64,000 nt of DNA. Origin: Hypomesus transpacificus. Taxonomy: Eukaryota; Chordata; Actinopteri; Osmeriformes; Osmeridae. The translations under genes were made by a program, and so were the position numbers. Positions within the stretch are counted from its first letter, which is position 1; every line of letters begins with the position of its first letter. The notes below the pieces were generated by a model. That model searched no databases and was not told where the DNA came from. It worked only from the letters and a program-made list of their open reading frames with translations. This document shows, piece by piece, positions 3,160 through 57,646 of the stretch. The DNA lies in contig NC_061063.1 of NCBI RefSeq assembly GCF_021917145.1, forward strand, positions 5,811,944 through 5,875,943, in the 5' to 3' direction.

Positions 3160-3780
3160 TTTCTGTGACAGACATTTAATACAGAAACTGTATTTTCACA
3201 CAGCTATTCTACAGATATAGGAACTCAAGGATGGGAGGTGGGCGGGACGGGCTTCAAGCATGGGGGTACCAAGCCAATCAGAGCCACACAAGGGGGTAGG
3301 AGTGAGGAAGTAACCAATAGCAACAACAGGAACAAGAAGAGGGATGCAGAGTGAGGGGAGGATTGTTCCTGGAGAGGGGGGTGGTGAGACATAGGGAGAG
3401 AGAGAGGAGAGGGGGATGGAGAGTGCAGTTTTCATGTCGTCATGGGTGAATGAGTGCATGACTGTGCAACACAATGTCATGTATGTGTGCGTCTTTGTGT
3501 ATTTCTGTCATCCAAGTCAATATAAATATCTATATAAATATTTATCTTGTTTATCATAATCATCGGTTCCAGTTGTGCTTCAAGCTTCATATATTTGATC
3601 TACACAAATCTCTCCATCCACGTTTGTCAATCTGCTGGCATGTCAGTTTAGTCTGCCTGTCAAAAGATTGGTCAGTTCTGTCTGTAGTCCCATCGGTCCT
3701 GTGTGTGTGTCTGTAGTGCTGTTGGTCCTGTCTGTCTGTGTGTGTGTGTGTGTGTCGGTGGTGGGTGTTTGGCTGGGTCA

Positions 3781-3968
3781 GCTGGGTCTCACAGGAGTGG
3801 TCTAACAGAGGATGGGTCTCACAGGAGTGGTCTAACAGAGGATGGGTCTCACAGGAGTGGTCTAACAGAGGATGGGTCTCACAGGAGTGGTCTAACAGAG
3901 GATGGGTCTCACAGGAGTGGTCTAACAGAGGATGGGTCTCACAGGAGTGGTCTAACAGAGGATGGGTC

Positions 3969-3975
<7 letters not shown>
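3781..3975 (-). repeat. 30-bp minisatellite starting at the eno2 stop codon
   Basis: Six and a half head-to-tail copies of a 30-bp unit with almost no divergence (first full unit 3781-3810, half unit 3961-3975). Read on the minus strand, the half unit begins in the last two eno2 codons: CTG TGA, the terminal Leu and stop, lies inside the repeat. Every later unit therefore carries another CTGTGA in the first 190 bases of the 3' UTR. The period is a multiple of three, which explains the spurious open frames on both strands here. Confidence 0.95.
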
Positions 3976-8908
<4,933 letters not shown>

Positions 8909-13599: not shown

Positions 13600-17726
<4,127 letters not shown>

Positions 17727-18830
17727 AGCCGAGGAGAGAGGCGAGGGCGGGCCACGTGGGCATAGGGACAGACCGAGAGATCTGGGAAGAGGGAGGGAGG
17801 GAGGGTGGGTGGGAGCAAAAGAGGACGAGCGAGACACTCGTTTAAATAGTGCCTTCAGTGGATGACAGAGGGGATATGTGGTTTTAGGTGTGAGGGGTTG
17901 ACAACGAGCAATGTCTAGATACAGACAGACCTGGTGTGTGCTCCCTGCATCGCTGGCTTCAGTAACACAGCTGATCAAATCTCTGTACCAGTACCTAGAA
18001 GAAGAGACTTTAGCAATAGTAACGAGATGTCCATATTCTCTGTTGCCTTAAAAGTTACACACACACACAAAAGTTTCGAGAGATTTCGGGAGGAATAGTG
18101 CAGAGTTGCGTGCTTATTTTCTGTTTGATAAATCCTTAACTGACTGGAGAGAAAGTGCTTCAACCAACACAGTCTAAACACACATACACACACACACCCA
18201 CCCTCTCACACTTTCAGACTAGTGCTATTTCTGCTGCACATCTGTCCTAGTTGACACCACCAACATTGCAGCCTCCAGTACCTGCTTCTGAGAGGCAATC
18301 TTATATTTCTGCTGAGATCAACAACTCTTCTTCTCCTGTTTGCCTTTGCCTTTACTCCACTGGAACCTCAAGTGCTTTTAACTTCCTCTTGGTTGACTGC
18401 TGCCCCCTTCAGACGTTAACATGAACTGAGTTTTCCACTTTTGGCCTTTTCTTTTGGAGATTATAGTGTATTAATGATTATATTATGAGTATTATATTTT
18501 TCCTTACTCTTTGTTTTGGAGGGGATGTTGCAGTGGTAAGCTGTTTTGGCATTTGAGGTTTCTTTTTTTTTTTTTATATATTTTTTTATTATTATTTGAT
18601 GGATGTGTGCCAATGGTCTCAGCGTCATTTGGTCTGGTTTCATTTGACATAACAATCATGAAATGCCTCGTAATACCTACTACCGTGCTGGTAGTGATCA
18701 GTAGTAATAACAGCAAAAGCAATAACGGTTGACAAATAACAAACATAGCTCTGTCAGAACTGCCTCATACGATTGTTGTTGAATCAGGGGTGATTTGAAA
18801 TAATAAAAAAAAGTACTTGAACCTCTTGAA
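17727..18830 (+). other. 3' UTR of the cdc42 paralogue
   Basis: Non-coding sequence after the TAG, ending near an AATAAA at 18802-18807 in an AT-rich context. A CA repeat lies at 18058-18068 and T-runs at 18563-18590. No other gene was seen. Confidence 0.55.
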
Positions 18831-21080
18831 CTTGTTTTGAATTTGAAGTCTGTGAAAGTAATACGCATAATTCAAATTATTATATAGTTGTGTGTCTAAT
18901 ATATTGTAGTCTTGGAGCAAGGAGGCCATTGTCATACCAGCTCCTCACTACAGGCTACTGGAAACCCCTATGTAGCCAAGATGAAACCCAGCAGTTTTGT
19001 TTCCAGTGACATTTTAAGATCAAAATGTAATCTATAGGGTTAGCAGATTAGATATATTTTATGTTGCAAACAGTTGCATGTTGCAATATGAGTCATTTTG
19101 AATTACCAAACATTGGAAATGGCTTTGATTAAAGTGGCTATGACAGTCAAAACCATTGGAGGTGATAAAGTAAGCTGACCTGAAAGCTAAGCCCACGTGA
19201 GACATGGAGGAGGCCTTCTTGGTGCTGGGGCAGCAGCGTGGCATAGAGCTGGAAGATGGGATGGATCGTGACTTCGGCCCTATTCCACCGTCACTCATTG
19301 ACAAATCTTTTTTTTTTTTTTTATTGAACACATTTTGTTTGTTCACACCATAAGTGAGGACACTGACACAGTCATCCTGTTTGTGGGCTGACCAATGGGC
19401 TTGGAAGGCTGATGGTCAATCAGCAGTGAAAATGGAGAGGGGATGGCCCCATCCTGGACATCAAAGCCACCGTCAAAGTGTTGGGTGACTGATATCAGGG
19501 TCTTCTACCCCAGTGGAAAAGGTGATGTGATGAAAGTACTCCAATGAAGTACCATACCCAGTCTCCGTCCAGTGCTTGGGGAACCTGATGCTACTCAAGT
19601 CAATGAATAACTCACTACCAGATCGGCAGATGGAGGAAAATCCACCTGAACTGAAGATCTTTCTCCAATTGATATGCATGACACGCATGGCAGCAGCCAA
19701 AGAACTGCACTGCCGTGCTGCAAGTCTCAGTTGCCCTGACTATTACAAGTGAAGGAGGTGAGGTCCGCTGCTGCAAACCCAATCCCAATACATGAAGAGG
19801 AAGAGGCTGAGGAGAGAGGTGATGAAGAGGGGGAAAGCCTTTGAGTGTGAAGTTGTGGTTGTTGTTCTCAATGAACTTATTGCTGTTTCCTATATTCAGT
19901 GTTTTCTTAGCTAAATATCCTAAATTATGGAAATGATCAGATGTTTGATACCATCTACATGTTTTTAACTTGCAAATGAAAACAATTTTTTTAATGAATT
20001 TGCTGATAAGGGCAAGAAAATAGGCTAGAAATGTTTTGTTATATTTTATACACACAATGCCGTACGTAACCATTAGAATGTGATCATTTTAGAATGTCTT
20101 CTTTTTCGTAAGAATTAGTTAATTCTGGAGAAAAAACAACAACATGCAATTCTTTTTAAGCAACCAATTTGAAACTCGTCCCTTGGGCCAGATGACATTT
20201 CCATAATAAAAGTTCATAAGCAACACCATTACTAGGTTCAAGACATTTCCAGTAGACTACTAGGGGGCAGTGTTTCATATGTTTTGAAAGGACCCATGCA
20301 AATGGCCCATATTCAGCTCCAAGGCCCATTTTGATTGGCAATCTAAAATGGATCTTGTCCCAACCCGGCATGACATGTCCTAAGCCAACTGGCTTCCCTC
20401 CTCAGCGATGTGTGGCTCTCAGCTGACTTGTGGAATGGACCTAACCATGAAGGCTGTGACCCTGGGCCTCTGTCAAGGCCCCCTAGAAGGTGGCCCTGCT
20501 CGAAGGAGTTCTTTATTTTTTTTTACAATTCAACAAGGATTGTTTCCACCATTGACATAATCTAACACTGATTAATTGTTTTCCTAATGGATTGATAAGT
20601 GTGACCTTGTTGCTCAGGCAGTCTACACGGTAGACACTGTCTGCCACATTTACCCCATTTTTTAGAACGTCCATTCTCATTGACGGTCTTTGGCACTGCT
20701 CCATTCACTGAAGTGCAGCAGAATAAAATGGCGGGGAAAAGCACAGAATGATTAGATTTATATGCTTCATTTAAACATTTATGTACCAGGGCTTGACAAC
20801 ACAATAGCCAATGTTTTAGCACTTGAATAATGTGTTTCAAGCACTCGTGTGAGGCAGAGGATGGAGCTAACTCAAATGTTGTAGATACTGAGACTGTCAA
20901 CAGCTAGACAGAGCATGAGAAAGGTGTTTGAGAGGGGTAGAGAAAAAGTAGAATCCATGGAGATATAAGCTGCCGGTCATCCATCTTGTGTACATGCGTG
21001 TAAAGGTGGGCGTGTGTTGTAATCTAGTCAGTCACACGTCCTGCCTGTCCCAGTGTGCCTGACTCAGTTTGTGGTGGTGG
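18831..21080. other. intergenic region with an unidentified coding-like remnant
   Basis: No intact gene. Between about 19204 and 19740 short frames read like eroded protein (for example MEEAFLVLGQQRGIELEDG, EDTDTVILFVG and IRVFYPSGKGDVMKVLQ). They are broken by stops, frameshifts and a T-run. This could be a decayed retrocopy or chance, and I could not assign a family. The rest is AT-rich with no recognisable feature. Confidence 0.3.
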
Positions 21081-21088
21081 TATGTGAA

Positions 21089-21681
21089 TATTATGGGATG
21101 CCCATTTGACCTCATTATAAGTGCGTTGCTATTGGCAACCATGGGTTGGGAGGGGGAGGCGGGAGGGGGGAGGGGGGAGGGGGGAGGGGGGAGGGGGGAG
21201 GGGGGAGGAGAAGAGGGGCATTATGGGATAGAAACCTGACCTCTCTTTTTTTCCCTCTCTCTCGCTGTCTCCGAGGACACACGGTTTGCCTAAACAAAGA
21301 TACATAAGGAGACATGGTGGGAAGAGATTGCCAAAGCCCACACTGGCAGAGCCATCACCATACCTGTTTACAGAGCTGGTATAAATAGTTACATCCACTC
21401 ACATTCAATATATATAGAGACCACTACACTTACACAATGGACAATAGCATGCAGTATATATACATTTCAGCCTAGAGGATGTACTCATTGTGTACGTGTT
21501 GTTGTGTGTGTGCGTTCGAATAGCATGAATGTCTCTGGCCACTGGAGTCGAAAAATCTGTCCGTCTCACTTCCTTGTTCCCTGATATGGCTGGTTTCCAT
21601 GAATACGGTGACGGCAAGGCAGCCTATGGTCTTATTATGGGATGCTCTTTGTTTTGTCACAACGTGTCCTGGTATGGGATG
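21089..21681 (+). promoter_or_regulatory. ZNF410-like motif group A (4 sites)
   Basis: Exact TATTATGGGATG at 21089-21100 and 21633-21644. Degenerate copies at 21219-21230 (CATTATGGGATA) and 21670-21681 (TGGTATGGGATG). The reverse complement CATCCCATAATA is the recalled ZNF410 binding motif. All copies share one orientation and lie upstream of chd4. A palindromic GTTGCTATTGGCAAC (21125-21139) and long G-runs lie between them. Confidence 0.75.
21148..21212 (+). repeat. G-run array with quadruplex potential
   Basis: About eight consecutive GGGGGGA-type units on the plus strand inside the upstream chd4 motif region. The pattern satisfies a simple G-quadruplex rule many times over. Related G-runs occur at 21691-21840, 22437-22565 and 25460-25545. 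Confidence 0.8.
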
Positions 21682-22310
21682 GGTGGGTGGGGGAGGGGGG
21701 TGAAAAGAGTATGTGTGAGTGTTGAGGAGGGGGGGGGGGTGGAAAGGGTGTGTGTGCATTGGGGGGGAGTGTTTGTGTTGGGGGGAGGGGCAGAGAAAGA
21801 GTGCACGTGCATGCGTGTGTTAAGATGGGGGGGGGGGGGGGTGGTAATGTTGACGTGTGTGTGATGTAAGCTAAGCACCATGAGTACAACTGGTAGGTGA
21901 GAATAACCTCTTCGATTGTTTGGACTACATCCCAAAACTACTAACTGGGCAAAATCCAATGTACACCATACAACATAAAATAACAGAAGTAATAACGTAG
22001 GGACACAGCCTAGGCCACCATGCTTATTTTGGGGCCTAAAGTTTGTGCTGTCTACTTGTCACATAGTCTGTATGGAACGTGCGTACAGTTTTTTTCTCTG
22101 GACTGCCAACCTAAGGCGAGAGCAAGAGAAAAAGAGTTCAAATGGTTTTGGAAAGGAACCTATAGCGCATGGTTAGGTCTGTTGCAGACATCACTGTATG
22201 CAGTGTATTTTGAGAAACCGGCCTCCTTGTGTGTGTGCGTGTGCTTACAGTTTGAAGACATACTGTACTCTAAGAGAGGGGTGCGCGTGAGAGAGCGAGA
22301 GAGAGAGAGG

Positions 22311-22347
<37 letters not shown>

Positions 22348-22417
22348 AGGGAGAGAGAGAGAAAGAGAGGGAGGGAGAGAGACAGAAGAGAGCCGGGGAG
22401 TGAATTAGCACTCAGAT

Positions 22418-22745
22418 TATTATGGAGTGGCAGAGGTGGGGGAGGAGGGGGGAGGGAGGGCAGCCGCTCTGCTTATTATGGGATGCCGGCGTTGTTAGGC
22501 GTGGGGGAGGGGTGGAGGCGTGGAAGTAAGGGGGGGGGGGGGGGGGTTGGCTGAACGAGGGGGAGGAGGGGTAGCGGAATATTATGGTCTGGCCTAGGCC
22601 TGTTTTGTGTGCTAAGACTCTTCCCTCCACCCTCCCTTCTTCCCTTCCCTCCCACCCGTGCTTGAGAATGCGTGTGCGTTACTAAGGGAGTACTGTGTGC
22701 GCATTGAGATCAAGGCAGGCTTGACGTGTGGTATATTATGGGATG
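22418..22745 (+). promoter_or_regulatory. ZNF410-like motif group B (4 sites)
   Basis: Exact TATTATGGGATG at 22474-22485 and 22734-22745; the variant TATTATGGTCTG at 22580-22591; a degenerate TATTATGGAGTG at 22418-22429. Same orientation as the other groups, in G-rich sequence. Confidence 0.78.
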
Positions 22746-23961
22746 TCTATCCTCAGGTGCGTATTGAATGAAAGGAAAGAGACAGACGTAAGAGACAAAG
22801 GGAGTTGTCTGTTGGTCTGTCTGGGGATCTCACAAGAACCACATTGTCTCATATCATTTCCTAATAGTGGAGTTGAATGTGTTGCTCTTTCCAAATCATC
22901 TTTGCAAACAGTGATCCCAATTTTTATGAACTAAGGGTAGTTTATAGTCAAGGAACTGCAACTGGTTATTATTAATGTTACATTATGTGCAGAGAGTGGC
23001 GACACTGACAACACACACATACACGCATGCAGGAGTGTCCACAGAAGAAACCCATTTTCGACCCATTTTCTTTTTTTCCATCCACGACGTTCCTCTTCCA
23101 AGGACAGCCAGGAGAGGTGCGGAGCCATATCAGCGTTGCCCTGGGACCATTCCAAGTGCTCATGCCCATGTCTTAGTCAGGGACAGAGCAGGAGAAAAAT
23201 CTGGTTCAGTATTGAGACTTGATATACTTGTGACCTTGACCTCTCACTCTTCTTAATTCTTTGTTTGGCTGTTTATACTTATTCTAGACACCATGAGACC
23301 GTTTTTCAAATAGAGATCGGGTACAGTCCCCCCCCCAAAAAAATTGTATATAAACAGAGACTTCTCTTTCTTAGATTTAGACTAGGCCCAATGGAGTCCA
23401 ATTAACCAGTATGTACATTTGGCTCAAAATGTTTATAGACCACTGAACTCCATGAAGGTGTGGAGGAACAGTATCCCTCTAGTTTGAACTAATCTGTGGG
23501 ATTCTCCACAGATTGAGGCAGTCATGAATGTGTTTGGCTTGAATGATGTTAGATCCAGTCAAGCCAACACATAATGGAGCAAGCGTTCCTCATTCACATG
23601 AATGAAAGGAAGAAATTGTGGGAATACAACTAGAGCAAGACAGGAAGCCATATTATCATCAGCAACAGCAATGAACACTCTTTTCCCCTCACAGTGGAAC
23701 TGTCTCTTCACTGACAAGGGAAATGTGCTCTCACAATTCTTATTGTGTCAGCCAGGAGTCTCTTACTCTACCTGCCTGCCAGTCAGTCAGATAGCTGCTC
23801 TCTTATCTGTCTGTCCACAGTCCTCTCGTCTATCAGTGAGTCAATATGATTCCATCCATATGTTCTGTCTTGCCTGGTGACAGTCTTACATTAAAGGATG
23901 TCTGGAATGGAGAGGGTGTGGGGGTGTGTAGAGAGGAGGGGGGAGGGGGGGGTTGAAGGAG

Positions 23962-24206
23962 TATTATGGTCTGTATTTTGGCTTACATGGTAATCTGACC
24001 CCGCCTGTAACCCCCACCCCCTCGCGAGTGCTTATCTCCATGGCAACAACCGGTACAGGAAGAATATTATGGTCTGTAGTTTCTCTTTGCTCAAAAATGA
24101 TATTATGGGATGTTGCTTGTCGGCCGCCTGTGTGGGGGAGGGGCAGCAGCGTGCTGGTCCCCATGACAACCGCCCCCATATCCCTCTGATTGGTGATTAT
24201 GGGATG
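23962..24206 (+). promoter_or_regulatory. ZNF410-like motif group C (4 sites)
   Basis: Variant TATTATGGTCTG at 23962-23973 and 24065-24076, exact TATTATGGGATG at 24101-24112, and a one-mismatch GATTATGGGATG at 24195-24206. X-box-like CTCCATGGCAAC (24036-24047) and CCCCATGACAAC (24159-24170) sit between the sites. Confidence 0.8.
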
Positions 24207-25318
24207 TTACCCAACCCCCCTTCCTCACCACCACCACCCCCCACCTCACCCCTTCCCCCCATATGCACACATGAACACTGTGTTCACAGTGAAAGAGGGG
24301 GGGGGGGAAGAGAGAGAGAGCTTGTGTGATAGAGAGACAGAACTTGGGAGTGTGCATGTGCTCCATTTCCGTGGTTCTTTGTGACAGCACTCTGCTACAC
24401 CGTGTGAGAGCAAGAAACCCAGGAAGAGACTAACCAGCCAGTCAGCAGTCAGTCAGTAAGACAAAGGGAGGGCTGGTGGGAGGAGACAGGGGAGAGGGAC
24501 AGAGTAGTCACAAAATGAAGGTGTGCTGAGTCAGAGATATGTGAGAGAGTCCTAGAAAAGGTATTGAAATGTATGGAGCTTGAGCGAGAACTGTCAGTCT
24601 AGAATCGTGTAGGCGATCCAAGTCACGGAAGTGACAGCTTTTCTTATCTGTGCAGACTAGACAGAAACAGGACCTTCTGAGTTTGTTGTCCCAAATCGAC
24701 TACAGCAGTTCATTATATTTAAAGCCTCACTCGCAAACAGACACATAGAAAGCCACAACAGACACAAACACACACACATACACACTCACACACACAGTTA
24801 GTCAGCTGTTGGCTCCTGCAGTTAGAAACATTGAGGGATGGAGAAGAAGAACATGGCTGTGAATAAGGCCTTGATCCTACTCTGCTGTTTGCCTGTCTGG
24901 GCCCCTAGAAATGACCTCTCAACCTCTATGATCTAAGACCTATCCCTAAATAATGCCACCTGCCCTCTTAAGTGCTTGCTCATTGGACAGGGTGGTGCGT
25001 TGTCTACAAAAACGTATGTGGTATGAATGACAATGTTTGGCACTACAGCAATAGAATAAGGTATGGTCCCTGAGTGAAGACCTGTAAAACATGCTTTCTG
25101 GTAGAAGTGCCCATCTAATAGATATAAGACTGTGGTTGTGCCTATGTGACTGACTGTGCATGGTTGGTTGGTTGGTTGTTACTGCTCTTTAATGTACAGT
25201 GCAGTGTCTCTGCATACATATAGATGGTGAGACTCAAGTTAAATGCAGTCATGTGGCGCACAGTTGCCATGTGACGGCTCTCTTTTTTTCCATCCCTTTC
25301 TCTTTTTGGAGTTATGCT

Positions 25319-25558
25319 TATTGTGGGATGTCAGTGACTGTGCTGATTATTATTATGGGATGTCAGACGGGGGTGGGAGGGGGTGAGCGTTTCCATGGTA
25401 ATGTCGGTTGCTAAGGGGGGCACGGAGGAATGGGGAAGAGACTGCATGTGCGTGTGTGTGGGGGGGGAGGGGGGTGGATTATTATGGTCTGTACGTTGCA
25501 AGGTAACTATGCAGAGTGGGGGAGGGGTGAGTGTGTGTGGGGGGGTTATTATGGGATG
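25319..25558 (+). promoter_or_regulatory. ZNF410-like motif group D (4 sites), proximal to chd4
   Basis: One-mismatch TATTGTGGGATG at 25319-25330; exact TATTATGGGATG at 25351-25362 and 25547-25558; variant TATTATGGTCTG at 25480-25491. Interleaved X-box-like elements are GTTTCCATGGTAAT (25389-25402), GTTGCTAAG (25407-25415) and GTTGCAAGGTAAC (25495-25507). The last site is about 760 bases before the chd4 start codon, so this group probably lies at the promoter. Confidence 0.8.
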
Positions 25559-26316
25559 TCTGCCCCCTGATCTCTTTGTGTGTATGCGCGCGGGGTGTAG
25601 TGAGAGGGAGACGGCGACGTCGTGTGCAACGCAGGACAACATACGAAAAAAGATTAGAATAACGTTACAGAATTTATTAATTTATACATAGTTGTCCCAA
25701 AAATACACAAACTATTGAAAGAAAATTTACATAACGCTGTATTATACTGTTTTAATACAGTGGAATCAAGTTGTGAGTATTATTCTTTTTTGGGCTTCTT
25801 TGTTTCAGCTTAGTTTACATTATCTCCATGAAACGGAAGAACTGGAAGGAGTGATAATACATTACAGAACGTTTAGAATGTATTCCTGGAATCTTCTTTT
25901 ATTCTCTTACCTCGCCGGTAATGCTAGCTAGTAAAGCTAACGGGTATGCTAGCTAATGGGACGGAAAAGTAGTTGGAAGATGGCATGTGTCAGATGGCTT
26001 AATGTACGCATAAATTGAAATAGTTTAGTTACATTATCCATCTTTATTGTTGTATTGTAAGCACTATTCTTCTTGTGCATGTGTATTTATTATTTCTGAC
26101 ACTGCGAGTTCTAAATATTCACTTCCGTTTTCTTTTTGTTCTTTTTATTTCCACCCCTTTCCGAAACCTGTCCCTCATCTGGCACGACCTGGACTGGACG
26201 AATACAAGACTGGGACATAAGAACTCCGGAGGCGAAACGGATTTGCTTGCCAACTTTCTGTAAACTTTATTTTGGTTAGCTTGGAGTTTGGCTAACTAAA
26301 TTTAAAGTTTGCAATA
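25559..26316 (+). promoter_or_regulatory. chd4 promoter / 5' leader region
   Basis: Sequence between the last ZNF410-like site and the chd4 ATG. It contains CG dinucleotides around 25585-25630 and then AT-rich DNA. No TATA box or certain start site was recognised. The ATG at 26317 is not directly preceded by an acceptor, so the 5' UTR probably reaches it within one exon. Confidence 0.45.

Positions 26317-42818
<16,502 letters not shown>

Positions 42819-51616: not shown

Positions 51617-57646
<6,030 letters not shown>

Follow-up and report, generated by a model that had tools for sequence, protein, structure and literature searches.

Candidate ZNF410-site arrays with two site classes upstream of two chd4 genes in Hypomesus transpacificus

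Why should a stretch of fish DNA carry the same twelve-base word many times over, always on one strand, upstream of a gene for a chromatin-remodelling enzyme? The question is raised by a stretch of 64,000 nucleotides from Hypomesus transpacificus (NC_061063.1, positions 5,811,944 to 5,875,943; hereafter the window), for which a preliminary description had listed sixteen motifs of the type bound by the zinc-finger protein ZNF410 upstream of chd4. The answer proposed here is that the 4.5 kb upstream of the window chd4 gene very probably form a homotypic array of ZNF410 sites equivalent to the ZNF410 clusters at mammalian CHD4, that the array has two classes of site and that a like array stands at the second chd4 copy of the genome.

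The array and its distribution in the genome

The array occupies positions 21089 to 25558 and comprises 16 sites: seven copies of TATTATGGGATG (the class 1 word), four copies of TATTATGGTCTG (the class 2 word) and five near copies, defined as having at most two mismatches. Exact and mismatch searches of the window recovered every one of them where it had been described, 16 of 16 on the plus strand and 0.8 to 5.2 kb upstream of the chd4 start codon, and found no exact copy of either word in the rest of the window. Class 1 sites lie at 21089..21100, 21633..21644, 22474..22485, 22734..22745, 24101..24112, 25351..25362 and 25547..25558; class 2 sites at 22580..22591, 23962..23973, 24065..24076 and 25480..25491. 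The near copies are CATTATGGGATA (21219..21230), TGGTATGGGATG (21670..21681; two mismatches, the weakest of the 16 and with no counterpart seen at the other chd4 gene), TATTATGGAGTG (22418..22429; two mismatches to class 1 and also to class 2), GATTATGGGATG (24195..24206; one mismatch) and TATTGTGGGATG (25319..25330; one mismatch). Spacing is irregular. By position the sites form the four groups of four originally described (21089-21681, 22418-22745, 23962-24206 and 25319-25558), but only if near copies are counted: exact sites number two, three, three and three.

Could this be chance, or a repeat artefact such as a minisatellite or a repeat family rich in the class 1 word? Simple repeats are present in the region, and both words occur in short tandem arrays elsewhere in the genome. 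The counts, however, are far from those expected. Allowing up to two mismatches, the window holds 23 matches to TATTATGGGATG (16 inside the array, seven outside), whereas shuffled sequences gave a mean of 4.46 and a maximum of 13, with 23 or more in none of 100 shuffles; the class 2 word occurs four times against an expected 0.28. For near copies, of which the 4.5 kb hold five, random sequences matched to the region in composition gave a mean of 0.35, and none of the 300 generated held five or more. The expectation first given for such a 12-mer, 0.008 per 64 kb, is correct for uniform random sequence, but class 1 words are more frequent than that in the real genome (408 in 437 Mb); even at the genome's own rate the 4.5-kb span should contain only 0.004 class 1 words and 0.002 class 2 words. 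A scan of 17700-26500 against Rfam at gathering threshold gave no match to a structured RNA.

The distribution over the whole genome (437 Mb in 376 contigs) bears on the same point. It contains 408 class 1 and 206 class 2 words, and by splitting the search on flanking bases 407 of the 408 class 1 places were located. With a cluster defined as at least three class 1 words whose neighbours lie within 5 kb, these places yield four groups: seven words in 4457 bp in the window, four in 2005 bp on contig C2, where the second chd4 gene follows directly downstream; the remaining two are tandem arrays, with a period of 4.59 kb on C13 and of 27 bp on C78. The two chd4 genes thus have the only non-tandem clusters of at least three class 1 words, which are also the densest non-tandem clusters of the genome; equally dense clusters elsewhere, named beforehand as what would speak against the proposal, were not found in non-tandem form. 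For class 2, inspection by eye of 100 of the 206 places showed no groups of three or more other than those at the two chd4 genes and two short tandem arrays (C4, C7).

Outside the clusters the motif stands in otherwise unrelated DNA (51 single-motif examples, two duplicates left out), and T follows TATTATGGGATG in 29 of the 51. An interspersed repeat was considered as the source of the words and rejected: the motif lay in a stretch shared with another locus at only seven of 38 loci (four forming two duplicate pairs, three being overlapping loci or chd4 paralogues), and across 53 loci, the two duplicate pairs aside, matches at the motif span 16-46 bases. These unrelated flanks, the irregular spacing, the low expectation and the alignment of sites at a second chd4 gene (below) leave chance or a repeat artefact, already disfavoured, as very improbable. 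Separately, class 1 or class 2 words were observed in the repeat units of short tandem arrays (period 19-36 bp) at L086 (C78), L087, L088, L096 (C7), L089 (C22) and L095 (C4), and a minisatellite at L045:1607-2053 (C5 near 1263118) has, next to a single TATTATGGGATG, 14 copies (13 of GGTTATGGTCTG and one of GATTATGGTCTG) spaced at about 33 bp.

A second chd4 gene, two site classes and one orientation

The array on C2 contains seven exact sites of both classes and three near copies, 10 of 10 on the plus strand, 0.7-3.2 kb before the start codon: class 1 at 11996186, 11997231, 11997937 and 11998191, class 2 at 11997851, 11997962 and 11998122, and near copies (two mismatches or fewer) at 11995742, 11995825 and 11996024. 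Three near copies compare with a mean of 0.16, and three or more were obtained in none of 300 random trials; over the longer stretch 11986000-12000000, 11 of 12 matches with up to two mismatches are on the plus strand. The cluster ends 0.7 kb upstream of the start codon at 11998894, and the gene that follows matches the window chd4 exon by exon. A small GTPase gene of the same kind precedes both chd4 genes, which are most simply seen as copies from the teleost genome duplication, although this dating is our reading. A search with one chd4 exon found four close genes: the two chd4 genes (100 and 97%) and, at 83-84%, C25:5773648 and C9:12390041, presumably Mi-2-type genes of the chd3/chd5 kinds. 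At these two no cluster and, among the 407 located places, no class 1 word was found within 40 kb; the closest one is some 46 kb away for the C9 gene and some 695 kb away for the C25 gene.

Alignment of the two upstream regions shows that the sites are partly conserved between the two chd4 genes of this genome. A block at 25267..25586 (plus strand) aligns with C2:11997892-11998231 at 68% over 359 columns (E 9e-22) and includes four sites in each gene, paired in the same order: 25319/11997937 (near copy with class 1), 25351/11997962, 25480/11998122 (both class 2) and 25547/11998191 (both class 1). Two weaker pairs (E 0.009 each) join 21089 to 11995742, where the local alignment is weak and C2 has TATTATTGGATG, and 21219 to 11995825, where the 12 bases are identical. 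A seventh, 22474/11996186, is ambiguous: the site at 22418 also aligns there, and a global alignment placed the block differently.

The second of the firm pairs speaks to the relation between the classes. The GGTCTG form had been described as a second half-site class; it is instead a full-length variant of the same 12-mer, agreeing with the GGGATG form at 10 of 12 bases. At 25351/11997962 the window has a class 1 site and C2 a class 2 site, which BLAST aligns with two substitutions and MAFFT with a four-base gap inside the motif; whichever aligner is used, the two forms occupy the same place in the conserved order. If, on the other hand, only the GGGATG sites were Znf410 sites and the GGTCTG class were bound by a different, co-operating factor, some difference in context might be looked for, and a slight one exists: position -2 of the flank is A in seven of seven class 2 sites and in five of 11 class 1 sites. 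Class 2 words also make tandem arrays of their own elsewhere, and their link to Znf410 is putative. Against a separate factor stand the shared 10 bases, the single orientation and the interleaving of the classes at both chd4 genes, together with the pair in which one class aligns with the other (one alignment, in which the second aligner gaps the motif). On balance a second factor seems improbable, and a single Znf410-site array with two classes is preferred.

The common orientation allows a further reading, in which the array is real and bound by Znf410 but the use of one strand is a functionless relic of local duplication. Short G-rich flanks are indeed common to the groups: those at 23962 and 25319 match over 38 bases at 82%, and those at 22418 and 25349 over 36 bases at 81%. 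G and GA repeats also abound in the region. Yet at two genes that parted long ago every site has the same orientation (16 of 16 in the window, 10 of 10 on C2), although the aligned sites among them are not independent. Moreover, near copies around 31 single-site loci show no bias to the same strand: six share the strand of the site and 27 do not, one minisatellite accounting for 14 of those 27. Arrays confined to one strand are thus not the norm elsewhere. Local duplication is a possible cause of the orientation in the window and on C2; that the orientation is a relic and nothing more has a substantial chance of being right, but we lean against it. An X-box-like sequence, GTTGCAAGGTAAC, was also noticed at 25495-25507; it follows the class 2 site at 25480 by 15 bp and is kept as GTTGCGAGGTAAC at C2:11998137, at the same distance from the class 2 site there. 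As a rule of partner sites for RFX it was rejected: the frequency of X-boxes is not above chance in the two chd4 regions (8, where chance gives a mean of 6.5, and 3, where it gives 4.0), and half-sites beside single motifs are few (3 of 51, with 0 of 20 in controls).

znf410 as the candidate regulator

If the arrays are ZNF410 sites, the genome should encode a factor able to read them. In a protein search that scored 150 of 1442 candidates and yielded 278 matches, one clear znf410 orthologue was found, on contig C6; its best exon is 76% identical, the other listed matches reaching 44-59%. Four exons on C6 carry all five zinc fingers. Over the 144 residues of the finger domain that were compared, 120 are identical to the human DNA-binding domain (PDB 6wmi), and helix positions -1, 2, 3 and 6 of the five fingers are identical at 20 of 20; two other helix residues differ, F to L in finger 1 and K to Q in finger 2. 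Given 120 of 144 residues and 20 of 20 helix positions, fish Znf410 should therefore read the same DNA as human ZNF410. No exact word of either class was found in 30 kb around znf410 itself, and autoregulation was set aside as a candidate.

Most likely, then, fish Znf410 uses its five zinc fingers to bind TATTATGG(GA/TC)TG sites. Through many nearby sites a single factor would have a strong effect at one type of locus and activate chd4, and this activation would set the amount of the nucleosome remodelling and deacetylase (NuRD) remodeller. When duplication produced the two chd4 genes, the array would have gone with both, while a single znf410 is the only one found. How one factor might read both classes can be considered in terms of finger 4. 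Under the usual zinc-finger code, this finger (Glu -1, Ser 3, Lys 6) would fit GAC, assuming our register of the fingers on the DNA, and on its C-rich strand class 2 reads CAGACCATAATA. The available part of a review (PMC12264921) gives the finger 4 lysine of human ZNF410 a cross-strand guanine contact. It is conceivable, though we would sooner doubt than accept it, that Znf410 reads the two forms through one contact-switching finger, that chd4 uses a strand-polar array mixing both, and that a single regulator so sets the joint NuRD dose of the two genes.

Several points weigh against the proposal as a whole. That the motif belongs to ZNF410 is something we take to be so; no text stating the ZNF410 motif was found in the literature searched. 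Firm alignment with the other chd4 gene extends to only four of the 16 window sites, and the group at 23962-24206 has no convincing match at the C2 chd4 in the alignment of both upstream regions. A second znf410 could have been missed, since 150 of 1442 candidates were scored. Exclusive targeting is unproven, given that class 1 words standing alone are found 3.5-5.9 times as often as single-base neighbour words across the genome (408, against 209 for one set of three words, about 70 each, and 350 for another three, about 117 each); composition alone predicts 38-73. The higher G+C of single-motif loci (0.456, against 0.406 at control loci) may explain part of this excess, which reflects either single Znf410 sites kept elsewhere or another cause that raises the frequency of the word. 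Strict single-target action in the fish is thus not established, and exclusivity may be wrong. Thousands of ZNF410 peaks from chromatin immunoprecipitation sequencing (ChIP-seq) are, moreover, cited for one human line in the accessible text of PMC9426921. What stands of the single-target wiring claimed for fish is that non-tandem clusters, among the 407 class 1 places located, occur only at the two chd4 genes: the wiring would run from one znf410 to two chd4 genes, its exclusivity aside.

chd4, its neighbours and the mammalian system

The window chd4 gene extends over 26317..42700 on the plus strand (end approximate), its frame beginning about 0.8 kb past the last site; the start codon is predicted, and start and exons match the C2 copy. 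One exon matches human CHD4 (PDB 6ryr) with E 4.5e-36, the next best being CHD1 at 3.4e-14. A CHDNT domain scores above cutoff and a CHDCT2 match below it, and one further frame of the region gave no family in the domain search. Neighbouring frames match triosephosphate isomerase, enolase and a Ras-superfamily GTPase, with GAPDH barely above cutoff and an intermediate-filament match below it; the neighbourhood presumably resembles that of human CHD4. Inside the gene, tandemly repeated stretches at about 31400-32316 and 36600-37018 are visible as repetitive open frames and are probably intronic minisatellites; other tandemly repeated open frames lie outside it at about 3690-4000 and 52015-52314.

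Transcription factors devoted to essentially one gene are rare among vertebrates. The arrays at both chd4 genes point to an ancient switch, dedicated to an unusual degree, for the amount of a chromatin-remodelling enzyme; if this is true, their presence there and the lack of a cluster at the two other Mi-2-type genes would place the wiring before the split of fish and mammals. It would also open tests in fish of how many sites are needed, of the role of orientation and of the reason why chd4 dosage needs a regulator of its own. The GGTCTG sites would be natural variants for mapping the range of sequences that ZNF410 reads, a matter of interest for efforts to raise fetal haemoglobin through ZNF410. 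No title in the literature searched, where subscription papers were mostly out of reach, concerns such sites at chd4 in fish, so that a report in print is possible.

In mammals, ZNF410 clusters at CHD4 were reportedly described by Lan et al. and by Vinjamur et al. in 2021. According to the portion of PMC9181152 available, ZNF410 occupies eight loci in human cells, of which CHD4 alone is highly enriched and dose-sensitive; its loss lowers CHD4 by about 70%, and the clusters of its motif, found at the promoter of CHD4 and at a distal element, are unique in the genome and highly conserved. Two reviews, in the parts accessible, likewise have ZNF410 acting at clustered CHD4 motifs in mammals (PMC13398628, PMC12452803), and the accessible text of PMC9426921 places 23 of 2,894 predicted conserved ZNF410 sites at CHD4. 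The fish arrays resemble this system in their target gene, in the many upstream copies of one motif, in being the densest non-tandem clusters of their genome and in a factor whose finger contact positions are unchanged. They differ in that the fish has two chd4 genes, each with its array, and in layout: mammalian clusters comprise a promoter and a distal element, whereas the fish sites are spread over 4.5 kb in the window and 2.5 kb on C2. The second site class and the one-strand orientation are features seen in the fish, the comparison with mammals covering the other points.

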